DNA of 64,000 nt from Lampropedia cohaerens. GTDB taxonomy: Bacteria; Pseudomonadota; Gammaproteobacteria; Burkholderiales; Burkholderiaceae_C. Position numbers and translations under genes: made by a program. The DNA is taken from NCBI RefSeq assembly GCF_001005215.1, contig NZ_LBNQ01000033.1:181967-245966 (forward strand), in the 5' to 3' direction. The notes under the pieces were generated by a model that did not search any database, was not told the origin of the DNA, and saw only the letters and a program-made list of their open reading frames with translations. The first letter of the stretch is position 1; each line of letters starts with the position of its first letter. Positions 22,389 to 28,320 of this stretch are shown one piece after another.

Positions 22389-23589
22389 TTATGCCTGCAG
22401 GCTTTTGGAATTGCGGTCGTTGCGGTAGATGACGATGGGTTTGGCGCTGGAATCTGCCTGCAGACGCGCCGCTGCGACGGCCTGATCGCTGATTGCCGCG
22501 TCGATGCGGTGGCGCTGCGGTGAGCGGCCGCAGACGGGGTCGCAGGCGCTGGCATCGCCCGTTACGAGATAGGCCTGGCAGCGGCAGCCGCCGAAGTCAT
22601 CGCCGCGCTCAGGGCAGCTGCGGCACGGCTGCTGCATCCACGCGTCGCCGCGAAACGCGCCAAATGCGGAACTCTCATACCAGATGTAGCGCAGACTGTG
22701 CTCCTGTACCTTGGGCAGGTCCAGCCCCGGTAGCTGCCGTGCGTTGTGGCAAGGCCGTGCCATCGGGCGCTACGCCGAGAAATACCCGGCCCTAGCCATT
22801 CATGCAGGGCTTGGGGCGCTGCTCGTAATAGTCGGGAATGACAAAGAGAATCTTGCAGCGCGTGCCGATGCGCTGGCGGTACGTTTCGACGACGGCCTCG
22901 GCCTGCTGCAGTTCTGCGCGCGTGGGCATGAGCTGGGCGCGGTTAAGGTGGGCCCAGCCGTAGTACTGGGTGTTGGCCAGCTCAAGGTAGTCGGCGCCGA
23001 GCTCCAGCGCCATGTCGATGATGGCGCCGATGTGCGGCAGGTTGAAGCGGTGCAGCACGCAGTTGAGCACCATTGGAAAGCCGTTGCCCCGGATCGCCGC
23101 GGCGATGCGCTTTTTGCGATCAAAGGTGCGGATGTGCGAGAGAAAGTCGTTCATCGCCTGCGTCGAGTCCTGGAAGGAGAGCTGGATGTGGTCCAGCCCC
23201 GCTTGCTTGAGTGCGGCAATGCGCGCCTCGTTCAGGCCCACGCCCGAGGTGATGAGATTGGTGTAGAAACCCAGCTTGCGGGCGTGCGCCACCAGCGTCT
23301 CCAGATCCTTGCGCAGGGCAGGCTCACCGCCCGAGAGGCCCAGCTGCACCGCACCCAGCGCACGTGCTTCTTCAAAGACACGCAGCCACTGCTGCGTCGA
23401 CAGCTCCTGGTCGATGTTGGCGTAATCCAGCGGGTTGGAGCAGAACACGCACTGCAGCGGGCAGCGATAGGTCAGTTCGGCCAGCAGCCACAAGGGTGGG
23501 GTGACCGCCGGAGCCGCGGTCGCAGCCATTGCCGGGGCGGCCACCGTGGCCTGACGTTGAAAGGCGATAGGGGCTTCTTGGGTCGTCAT
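22389..23589 (-). pseudogene. pqqE: pqqE, disrupted by a nonsense codon and a frameshift
   Basis: Radical-SAM PqqE links Glu and Tyr of PqqA, the first chemical step of PQQ synthesis. The N-terminal part has the cluster motif (YRCPLQCVFC) and reads to CMNG. There, TAG (22792-22794) stands where intact PqqE has Trp (CMNGW). The frame then continues GRVFLGVAPDGTALP and loses register near 22748, where TTGCCACAAC lacks 5 bases relative to the expected LPCHNA codons. The C-terminal part (CHNARQLPGLD; CRSCPERGDDFGGCRCQAY) follows in another frame. Adding 5 bases gives 1206 nt, exactly 402 codons. The two lesions remove the C-terminal cluster-binding cysteines, so no functional PqqE is expected. 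Confidence 0.88.
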
Positions 23590-23594
23590 CGCAG

Positions 23595-23888
23595 TCAGAT
23601 CAGCCAGCCCTGCAGCTGGGCGGTGCGCAGCCAGTCGAGCACATCTTGCGCTAGATCGGCATTCGGGTACTGGGCTTGCAGGGCGGCAACGATGTCCTGC
23701 GGACTGCGCGAGCCATCGCACAGCGCGAGAATGGCGGCCGCGCTGGCGTTGAGCTTGACCATGCCTTCCGGGTAGAGCAGCACATGCGCGTTCTGCACGG
23801 GCTCCCACTGCATGCGGTAGAGCGGTTTCAGGCGCGGCATCGCGGGCAATGGTGGCGGCGTGTCGCCGGCCAGGGAGGTGGTGGTCAT
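23595..23888 (-). CDS. pqqD: PQQ peptide chaperone PqqD
   Basis: A 97-residue protein. PqqD binds the PqqA peptide and presents it to PqqE. The RiPP-recognition domain is intact (YRMQWEPVQNAHVLLYPEGMVKLNASAAAIL, then CDGSRSPQDIVAALQAQYP). The start at 23888 overlaps the pqqC stop by 4 bases, and its stop lies 5 bases before pqqE. The open frame is undamaged although its partner pqqE is broken. Confidence 0.9.
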   Translation of the reverse strand: MTTTSLAGDTPPPLPAMPRLKPLYRMQWEPVQNAHVLLYPEGMVKLNASAAAILALCDGSRSPQDIVAALQAQYPNADLAQDVLDWLRTAQLQGWLI

Positions 23889-25674: not shown

Positions 25675-25889
25675 GATGGATCTCCTTGAAAAACTGCGCC
25701 CGGCGCCATTGCCCGGCGCGCACCTGAACATCGATTGCGTTGGTGCGGCTGCATTGTCGGTAGGCGGGTCAACTTTTTCATCCATGAAATCATGAAGTGG
25801 TGTCATGATTTTCATGATTTCTGCATGCGCGCCATGGGCTGCCACGACCATGCGAGGCAAGCGGCGTGGGAGCTTCGTAGAATGCCGCC

Positions 25890-26953
25890 GTGCCAATCGA
25901 GAATTCTTTCCATGCCCGGCCGAGTGGCCAGGCGTTGCCTGCGCGGCCCGGCACAGGCAGGCCAGTTGACCAGGTGGGCGAGCTCCCGGCCACGGGGGGC
26001 ATCGCATCTGCTGGTACCAATGGGGGCAGCGCCGTGGGCAACCCCTGCTGTGCCTGCATGGAGGGCCGGGCAGCGGCATGTCACCGCGACTGCTGCGGCA
26101 GTTCGATGCCCGTGTCTGGTCCGTGTTCGGGCTGGATCAGCGCGGCTGCGGCCGCAGCCTGCCTGCGGGCGAGTGCCGGCACAATACGACGCAGGATCTG
26201 ATCGATGACATTGAGCGATTGCGCCAGCTTCTGGGGATTGACCGGTGGCTGGTATGCGGGGGCTCCTGGGGCGCTACGCTTGCGCTGGCCTACGTCGCGC
26301 AACAGCCTCAGCGGGTTTCGGCGCTGCTGCTGCGCAATGTGTTTCTGGCCAGCCGGCAGGAGGCAACGGCACTGTTTGCCGCGCCAGGCGCGGCCGCACC
26401 TTTCGTGCAGCACGAGGCCTGGTGTGCGCTGCAGGACGTATGGGATGGCTACGCGGCGCAGAGTGGTTCGGCTTCCAGTGCAGCGAACGAGCCCGCGGCG
26501 CGGCTGGCGCTGAGCCATGCGCTGCTGCAGCATGGTGCGGGCGACTGGCCGCAGCAGCTGGCGCTGGCATGGGCGCGCTGGGAGGCCGCGCTCGAAGGTG
26601 CCGCCTGGCGGGCGCCGGCGACGCCTTAGCCGCTGGTGCAGCGTTATCGCATCCAGGCGCATTACCTGCTGCACGACTGTTTTCTGCACTGGCCCGCGCA
26701 GCTGCCGCAGGTGATCAACCGCCTGCGCACGGCCAATCTGCCAGTTGCCCTGGTGCATGGTGTGCAGGATCGGCTTTGCCCCGCCGACAATGCGCGCATG
26801 CTGCGGCATCATCTGCCGGCGAGTCGTCTGGCACTGGTGCCGCACGCCGGGCACGATCCCTGGCATCCCCGGATGGTGCAGTGCTGGCAGTCTGCGCTGC
26901 AGAGCGTGCTGCGCGACGGTGACTTTGCGGGCTGGGAGGACGGCACGCCATGA
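25890..26953 (+). pseudogene. pip: proline iminopeptidase, disrupted twice
   Basis: An alpha/beta-hydrolase that removes N-terminal proline. The family body is clear (HGGPGSG, FGLDQRGCGRS, nucleophile motif GGSWGATLA, acid in GVQDRL, His in HAGHDPW). Two lesions are seen. At the G-run 25994-25999 one base is missing, so the frame from the GTG at 25890 ends and the HRICWYQWG strand is read in another frame. At 26627-26629 an in-frame TAG splits the cap domain. One added base gives 1065 nt, a whole number of codons. The start is uncertain. It lies downstream of pqqA on the other strand and overlaps the sensor-kinase start by 4 bases. Confidence 0.8.
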
Positions 26954-28320
26954 GCCTGCAACTGCGCATCGGCCTCATCGTCACCAGCATGATGCTGATT
27001 TTCATGTGCAGTCTGGTGGCAATGGACGTGCGTCATTCGCGCGCGGCCATTGCTGAGGAAATCCGCGCTTCCAATCTGATTGCCGTCAATCTGCTGCGGC
27101 GGATTGACACGGCATTCATCCACGGCGATCCCGCCGGCTTTCTGATGTTTCTGGAGCGCACCGGCCGCATTCGTGCCAACGACATTGCACTGTATGACGC
27201 ACAGGGCCGACTGCGCTACCAATCGCCACCTTCGCAATACAAGCCAGGTCGTGAGGCGCCGCGCTGGTACGCGCGTCTGGTCGAGCCGGCCCTGCCGGTG
27301 ACGCAACTGCCACTCAAGGGCGCGATACTGCAGGTGCGCGCGCACACCAGCCGCGCCGTGCTGGATGCGTGGGATGAGCTGCGCGGGCAGCTGCTGACGG
27401 CGCTGGCGTTGCTGGTGCTGTCGCAGCTGGCGCTGCTGTGGTGAGTGCGCCGCAGCACGCGGCCGTTTGCGCTGATCGAGCATGCCCTGCAGGAGCATGC
27501 GGCAGGCCGCACCGACACCCGCCTGCCACGGCTCAGCGGCAAGGAGGCGCGCAGCATCGCGCGGCGCTTCAACGAAATGGCGGACGCGCTTGCCGGCCTG
27601 CACCGGCAGCGGCTGGCGTGGGCGCAGGCGCAGGCCTATCAGCAGGCGCAGCGGCACTACACCTATCGCCTGCAGGCCGACCGGGAACTGGAGCGCAAGC
27701 AGCTGGCCGCCACGCTGCATGATGAATTCAGCCAATCGCTGACAGCGTTGCGCAGCGTCAGTCACGTGCTGGGCATGGCGCAGGTCGACCAGCAGCGCCA
27801 GCGCGACGCGGTGGCGCTGATCCAGCACAGCGTCGAGCGCATGCAGCTGGTGCTGCGCGGTCTGCTTTCCAGCCTGCGTCCGGCGGCGCTGGACGGGCTG
27901 GGTCTGGCCATGGCGGTGGAGGACTTGCTGGCGCAGTACCGGCAGTTTCATCCGCAGTTGCAGCTGCGTTTTCACAGCCGCACACTGCCGTCATTGCCGG
28001 AAGCGCTGCAGATGCATGCCTACCGCCTGGTGCAGGAGGCATGCACCAACGCGATTCGCCATGGGGCATGCCAGAACATCCGCGTGTCGCTGCGCGCGTC
28101 CGCTGCGGCATTGCATCTGCGCATTGCCGATGACGGCTGCGGACGGGCCGATGCCATTGCCCCCAGGGCGGGCCATTTTGGCGTGATAGGCATGGTCGAG
28201 CGGGCCCAGGCGCTTGGCGGCAGCGTGCGCTGGCTGGCAAGGCCTGGCTCCGGCGTGGTCGTGCTGGCGCGTCTGCCGCTGTCGCACGCCCCAGTGCCGC
28301 CGCAGGAGGGCAGGGCATGA
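26950..28320 (+). pseudogene. NarL-family sensor histidine kinase with in-frame TGA
   Basis: The two halves are in one frame, split only by TGA at 27442-27444. The first (residues 1-164) has an N-terminal helix, a periplasmic domain and the start of the second membrane helix ending LALLW. The second begins VRRSTRPF and holds the HAMP linker, the HisKA_3 phosphoacceptor (ATLHDEFSQSLTAL) and the HATPase domain (EACTNAIRHG, DDGCG, GHFGVIGMVERA). The stop falls where such kinases usually have Trp, so TGG to TGA is likely. Without readthrough no membrane-anchored kinase is made. It overlaps the iminopeptidase stop and the response-regulator start by 4 bases each. Confidence 0.82.

Follow-up and report, generated by a model that had tools for sequence, protein, structure and literature searches.

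Does Lampropedia cohaerens, a hot-spring bacterium credited in its genome paper with the production of pyrroloquinoline quinone (PQQ), still make this compound, and does it still use it? The question is raised by a locus of eight genes in a 64,000-nucleotide stretch of contig 33 (NZ_LBNQ01000033.1), here called the window, from a genome of 3,158,922 bases in 41 contigs. In this locus, the genes pqqEDCBA on the minus strand are followed on the plus strand by genes for a proline iminopeptidase (pip), a sensor histidine kinase, and a response regulator, and the block is bracketed by the convergent genes ung and trpA (Table 1). The genome paper lists pqqB, pqqD, and pqqE along with 3 copies of a PQQ glucose dehydrogenase (PMC5015223). 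Our analyses suggest instead that a switch from producer to scavenger has been caught part-way, in which synthesis has likely been lost and PQQ is predicted to be imported through a PqqU-type receptor for a single intact dehydrogenase; we put the probability of this reading at about 0.7.

An earlier reading of the DNA without database searches, here called the sequence-only reading, had claimed at least 6 lesions in 4 of the 8 genes, namely pqqE, pqqB, pip, and the histidine kinase gene, and intact frames in pqqA, pqqC, pqqD, and the response regulator gene. When checked by frameshift-aware alignment to relatives, by tblastn and by direct reading of the sequence, all 6 lesions were present and the other 4 reading frames were open. 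The lesions in pqqE are decisive, in that the radical-SAM half stops at an in-frame TAG codon and the SPASM half is located in another frame. At the site of the TAG codon, 69 of 79 relatives have tryptophan and 1 has leucine, while 9 gave no match to the motif. The 2 halves matched PqqE in different frames in the tblastn search, with a net loss of 5 bases, and scored 351.2 and 137.9 bits, both of which are below the TIGR02109 cut-off of 381.35, and no PqqE was recovered in a single frame.

The lesions in the other genes were more varied. In pqqB, the distance from the ATG at 25537 to the QWNC codons is 28 bases, and we consider 17 bases to have been lost since relatives usually have 15 codons, or 45 bases, in this segment. 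The strict N-terminal motif was matched by 111 of 119 PqqB homologs, and 7 of the 8 that did not match were inspected in part (5 distinct N-termini, one of which occurred 3 times) and found to be mostly near-variants. With the 17 bases absent, a complete PqqB N-terminus is not encoded. For pip, neither half attained the family cut-off. The single-base loss from a G run in this gene is the weakest lesion call, as it was judged by us from the N-terminus, which is less conserved, and was left unmarked by the alignment program, and the TAG codon is located where the aligned relative has a gap, with the frame continuing beyond it. Among the open genes, PqqC scored 314.4 bits against a cut-off of 240 and PqqD 103.1 bits against a cut-off of 46, and the PqqA translation contained EITMY, a motif with the glutamate and tyrosine that are converted to PQQ. 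The 4 broken genes account for about 71% of the coding length of the locus, and the chance that all 6 lesions would fall within them is 0.71^6, or about 0.13. We therefore rejected the intact neighbors as a sign of kept function, since their survival may be luck.

Since PqqE is responsible for the first cross-link in PqqA, a broken PqqE would stop the pathway. PQQ synthesis is very probably dead, and the genome as sequenced points to an organism that is very probably unable to make PQQ, in line with the earlier suggestion that the pathway is gone even where gene names list it, as the genome paper itself does. An intact second copy of pqqE was looked for in the L. cohaerens genome, and none was found; the search gave one match at an E-value of 1e-60, and at 0.001 only the 2 pqqE halves and 2 weak hits of 26 to 28 bits were recovered. 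The genes pqqC and pqqD gave a single match each. PqqB taken alone is less certain, as translation from a later start could conceivably give a shorter protein that is still above the family cut-off. It could be argued that PQQ is still made, with the PqqE halves working together as a split enzyme alongside a shortened but functional PqqB, given that the 2 PqqE halves have open frames in which the conserved columns are kept and that a later-start PqqB of 293 residues is present in the database. We find this extremely improbable, however, because a stop codon and a change of frame separate the halves, and because a full-length PqqE is found in 46 of the 48 genomes with pqqE in the family survey described below.

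It is also very improbable that the organism has intact genes and that the lesions are errors of sequencing or assembly. Dividing the clean bases by the genome length, both taken from the genome paper for strain CT6T, gave an Illumina depth of about 967-fold (PMC5015223), which makes sequencing error unlikely and supports the argument of the sequence-only reading against random error. According to the same paper, the reads were aligned back to the assembly and inspected, although its table gives the depth only as ">10x" (PMC5015223). Two or more single-base losses, in the locus and on contig 9, fell in short runs of G or A, as might be expected of errors, but errors do not typically take the form of 3 substitutions to stop codons or of losses of 5 and 17 bases. 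As a control, 29 of the 45 other open reading frames in the window (52 listed minus 7 in the locus) were scanned; 21 of the 29 proteins matched NCBIfam models and none of the 21 had a split match, which agrees with the earlier observation that the other genes of the window are undamaged. The sole large N-terminal gap among them, in a helicase, was due to an in-frame insert. The control is mild, since the proteins had been chosen as open frames, and the 8 without a match are uninformative. A coding-potential scan was also tried and set aside: in its strict form it found 1 of the 6 lesions in the locus and 2 of 3 on contig 9, while 6 other events in the window resembled gene junctions, and in its loose form, which included nine 20-kb control stretches, too many junctions were flagged for it to be used as a rate.

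The decay looks recent, as the sequence-only reading had proposed when it described the locus as newly released from selection. Outside the lesions, nearly all columns with a conservation of 97% or more among relatives were kept, that is 97 of 97 in PqqE, 13 of 13 in PqqD, 50 of 52 in PqqB, 79 of 82 in PqqC, and 67 of 74 in the response regulator. Some excess change was seen in PqqC (the third most of 81 rows) and in the response regulator (the most of 12 rows), and none in PqqE and PqqD. The kept columns suggest that selection acted on the genes until a short time ago. The long branch of the pqq genes (0.63), which could point to faster evolution, was not counted as a sign of relaxed selection, since it is paralleled by TrpA.

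The sequence-only reading had called the decay localised, which did not hold, since a PQQ dehydrogenase gene was found to be broken on another contig too. It had also pointed to PQQ-dependent dehydrogenases as a check, and here the outcome was divided: the genome contains 2 dehydrogenases of the membrane family, both outside the window, of which the copy on contig 20 is intact and the copy on contig 9 is broken. The contig 20 protein scored 1006 bits against the TIGR03074 cut-off of 832.65, over positions 3 to 783 of 783, and kept 236 of 238 conserved columns; it belongs to the glucose/quinate/shikimate family and is a predicted user of PQQ. Its closest named relatives are one protein each from Lampropedia and Corticibacter. 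The contig 9 copy matched all 9 reference dehydrogenases in 3 frames, with frame changes at about 5855-5867, 6016, and 7215-7224 of stretch L115 (3 against each of 2 references), and the best of its pieces scored 406 bits, below the family cut-off. The 3 copies of the genome paper could correspond to 1 intact gene and a broken gene read as 2 open reading frames. A TonB receptor of the FepA family (NF010048) is encoded directly downstream of the intact dehydrogenase gene, at 4716-7478 of stretch L116.

Contig 9 also encodes a TonB-dependent receptor with an open reading frame. This protein aligned to the PqqU model NF041535 over positions 7 to 675 of 676 with 835.8 bits, and was identical to PqqU of Escherichia coli, a PQQ transporter of solved structure, at 329 of 666 positions (49%). 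The PqqU signature consists of an aromatic residue at position 99, R304 and R365, with F accepted at Y99 (Munder et al., PMC12124388), and the receptor passes it with F, R, and R. Among the 11 binding positions taken from the same paper, 10 are identical, the exception being F in place of Y99, and the residues Q84, Q121, K274, Q308, Q310, N477, Y481, and R536 are all present. All 113 conserved columns of the receptor were kept, and we consider it to be a predicted importer of PQQ.

In membrane PQQ dehydrogenases, the cofactor is bound in the periplasm. Since the dehydrogenase faces this compartment, an importer in the outer membrane could alone suffice to load it, and PQQ could still be used after synthesis is lost, because an intact receptor and an intact dehydrogenase remain. 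PQQ taken up through the receptor would supply the intact enzyme, and import may have relaxed the selection on synthesis, after which the locus would recently have collected its lesions.

The distribution of these genes was examined in 10 genomes of the genus comparison. The membrane PQQ dehydrogenase was identified in 3 of them, L. cohaerens, Lampropedia puyangensis (G001), and a genome that is probably Corticibacter populi (G003), and the PqqU-type receptor in exactly the same 3, with the other 7 having neither. The pqqC gene was not found in any of the 9 other genomes, 2 of which are only 77% to 80% complete, and searches for pqqE in G001 and G003 gave only hits of 26 to 30 bits. In the stretches compared from 6 other genomes of the genus, ung did not follow trpA. 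The orthologs of the intact dehydrogenase in G001 and G003 were 75% and 76% identical to it, respectively. A general retreat from PQQ, in which the whole system is decaying, the remaining dehydrogenase and receptor have not yet been hit, and no scavenging takes place, would fit with the broken state of 1 of the 2 dehydrogenases and with the 7 genomes that lack both proteins. Such a retreat is unlikely, however, in view of the conserved columns that the remaining dehydrogenase and receptor have kept and of the intact dehydrogenase orthologs in 2 relatives where pqqC and pqqE were not found.

It is also conceivable, and in our view quite unlikely, that a scavenging ancestor obtained the eight-gene block by horizontal transfer, never needed it, and is now losing it by decay. 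The block is absent, as judged by pqqC, from all 9 other genomes of the comparison, and ung and trpA are separated by about 100 bases in G001. Moreover, a pqq tree inferred from 73 of 80 loci, those with all 4 gene pieces, paired the block with that of Comamonas sp. BIGb0124 with a support of 99, and the gene order is identical. However, the GC content of the block, 0.659, is within the range of the window (0.616 to 0.667), the branch to the nearest relative is long (0.63), and the outgroup distances follow the pattern of TrpA, so that the arrival, if there was one, was not recent. The GC content and distances thus argue against a recent arrival and are compatible with inheritance or an older transfer.

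The proposed switch from production to scavenging was also viewed against the family as a whole, in a sample of 200 genomes that apparently came from a single draw (all 3 surveys tallied 179 good genomes and 141 genera) and in which the PQQ enzymes covered were the membrane dehydrogenases. We identified pqqE in 48 of the 200 genomes, a PqqU-type receptor in 112, and a membrane PQQ dehydrogenase above the cut-off in 26. All 14 genomes with the dehydrogenase and without pqqE carry a receptor with the signature. The receptor was present in 24 of the 26 genomes with the dehydrogenase versus 88 of the 174 others (Fisher p 3e-5, with relatedness ignored). Only 2 of the 48 genomes with pqqE were below the full-length cut-off for PqqE, L. 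cohaerens and a metagenome-assembled genome labelled Paracidovorax wautersii (G182). In the latter, pqqE is interrupted by an insertion: on one contig it runs into a transposase gene (Pfam HTH_Tnp_1; L013 9912-10218, L249), and on another contig the rest of pqqE is preceded by what appears by eye to be the last part of a second transposase gene. The receptor and 3 PQQ dehydrogenases of this genome have open frames. Two other genomes contained membrane PQQ dehydrogenase genes with one in-frame stop codon (TAA in G079:C28:167495-169912 and TGA in G025:C24:86702-88561), perhaps further cases of decay of PQQ enzymes.

Several observations weigh against the inference of a scavenger in the making. 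Receptors of this type are widespread in the family, and one was also found in 10 of the 12 genomes that have both the dehydrogenase and pqqE (it was absent from G099 and G128). We checked the signature in 52 receptors, namely 50 of the 112 (the 30 with the highest scores, that of L. cohaerens among them, and 20 selected from lower scores) and those of G001 and G003; all 52 passed, which indicates that the signature discriminates little in this family. The receptor of L. cohaerens scored below the NF041535 equivalog cut-off of 1200 bits, for which reason we label it PqqU-type and not an equivalog; none of the 200 family genomes attained this cut-off, while E. coli does. The dehydrogenase gene that adjoins the receptor gene is the broken copy, and the co-occurrence in 3 related genomes is a pattern and not a statistic. 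On the side of synthesis, the rest of PqqB is above the TIGR02108 cut-off (359 versus 245 bits, from model position 14), and a second copy of pqqB may be located elsewhere in the genome. The closest PqqB after the entry of L. cohaerens itself was 60% identical, and no sister strain was seen among the best 120 of 6900 matches (8000 candidates scored).

Scavenging of PQQ is known from E. coli, whose glucose dehydrogenase is supplied by uptake through PqqU, also called YncD (Munder et al. 2025, PMC12124388). L. cohaerens resembles E. coli in having a membrane PQQ dehydrogenase without working synthesis and a receptor that carries the PQQ-binding residues, but the pathway is wholly absent from E. 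coli, where transport has been shown, whereas it is freshly broken in L. cohaerens, where transport is predicted. G001 and G003 share the PqqU-type receptor with the signature and the orthologous membrane PQQ dehydrogenase, but neither pqqC nor pqqE was found in them, which means that the locus has either been lost completely or never existed there. G182 is similar in that pqqE is broken while the receptor and 3 full-length PQQ dehydrogenases are kept, and differs in that the break is caused by an insertion. The arrangement with pqqABCDE divergent from pip, the histidine kinase gene, and the response regulator gene recurs in Comamonas sp. BIGb0124 (L014) and P. wautersii DSM 27981 (L065); all 8 genes were matched in an identical arrangement in these 2 loci and that of G182 (L013), that is in 3 of the 80 loci compared. 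In Comamonas sp. BIGb0124, unlike L. cohaerens, pqqE is full length and above the cut-off (as in G031).

Table 1. Positions of the PQQ locus and its flanking genes in the window, and of the dehydrogenase and receptor genes on other contigs of L. cohaerens.
Feature	Position	Strand	Remarks
ung	21669..22370	+	left flank
pqqE, broken	22389..23589	-	TAG 22794-22792 after 265 codons; net 5-base loss near 22755
pqqE halves	radical-SAM 22792-23589; SPASM 22389-22763	-	different frames
pqqD, open	23595..23888	-	TIGR03859 above cut-off; 0/13 conserved columns changed
pqqC, open	23885..24643	-	TIGR02111 above cut-off; 3/82 conserved columns changed
pqqB, 5' end broken	24640..25537	-	17-base loss just before QWNC codons (~25510); remainder open, shorter start possible
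pqqA precursor gene, open	25600..25674	-	24 residues; translation and matches in relatives
pip, broken	25890..26953	+	six-G run 25994-25999 one base short; TAG 26627-26629
Sensor histidine kinase, broken	26950..28320	+	TGA 27442-27444
Response regulator, open	28317..29000	+	7/74 conserved columns changed
trpA	29014..29859	-	right flank, convergent with ung
PQQ dehydrogenase, intact	contig 20, L116 (G000:C20:40000-57000) 7482-9914	-	TIGR03074
PQQ dehydrogenase, broken	contig 9, L115 (G000:C9:218000-233000) ~5783-8275		three frameshifts and 33-base tandem duplication
PqqU-type TonB-dependent receptor, open	contig 9, L115 3216-5579		directly upstream of broken dehydrogenase

Elsewhere in the window, genes for a urea ABC transporter (urtA, urtB, urtD, and urtE) were located at 11643-17484, with urtC open as read by eye, and genes for a catechol siderophore at 51023-61649, including those for an EntF-like peptide synthetase, an isochorismate synthase, a 2,3-dihydro-2,3-dihydroxybenzoate dehydrogenase, and a FecR-like regulator.

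The scavenging of PQQ through PqqU has already been described (PMC12124388); the new elements are the unfinished state and a corrected reading of a published genome. Literature searches, judged mostly from the result listings, gave no earlier report of the broken genes, and a search for Lampropedia cohaerens together with pyrroloquinoline gave the genome paper alone. The production of PQQ and the 3 dehydrogenases listed there are to be replaced by a broken synthesis and 1 intact full-length dehydrogenase gene. L. cohaerens would probably depend on PQQ made by its neighbors. We consider the odds to be about even that it is turning into an obligate scavenger in a clade that keeps the importer and the dehydrogenase and in which the pathway is the first to go, its pqq locus being the last one of the genus, dead and yet still readable almost in full. 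Many bacteria use PQQ without making it, and the route by which they came to do so is usually visible only after the genes have been lost. Here, the order of events is testable, because a freshly broken synthesis occurs beside an intact receptor and an intact dehydrogenase, with relatives that lack the pathway.

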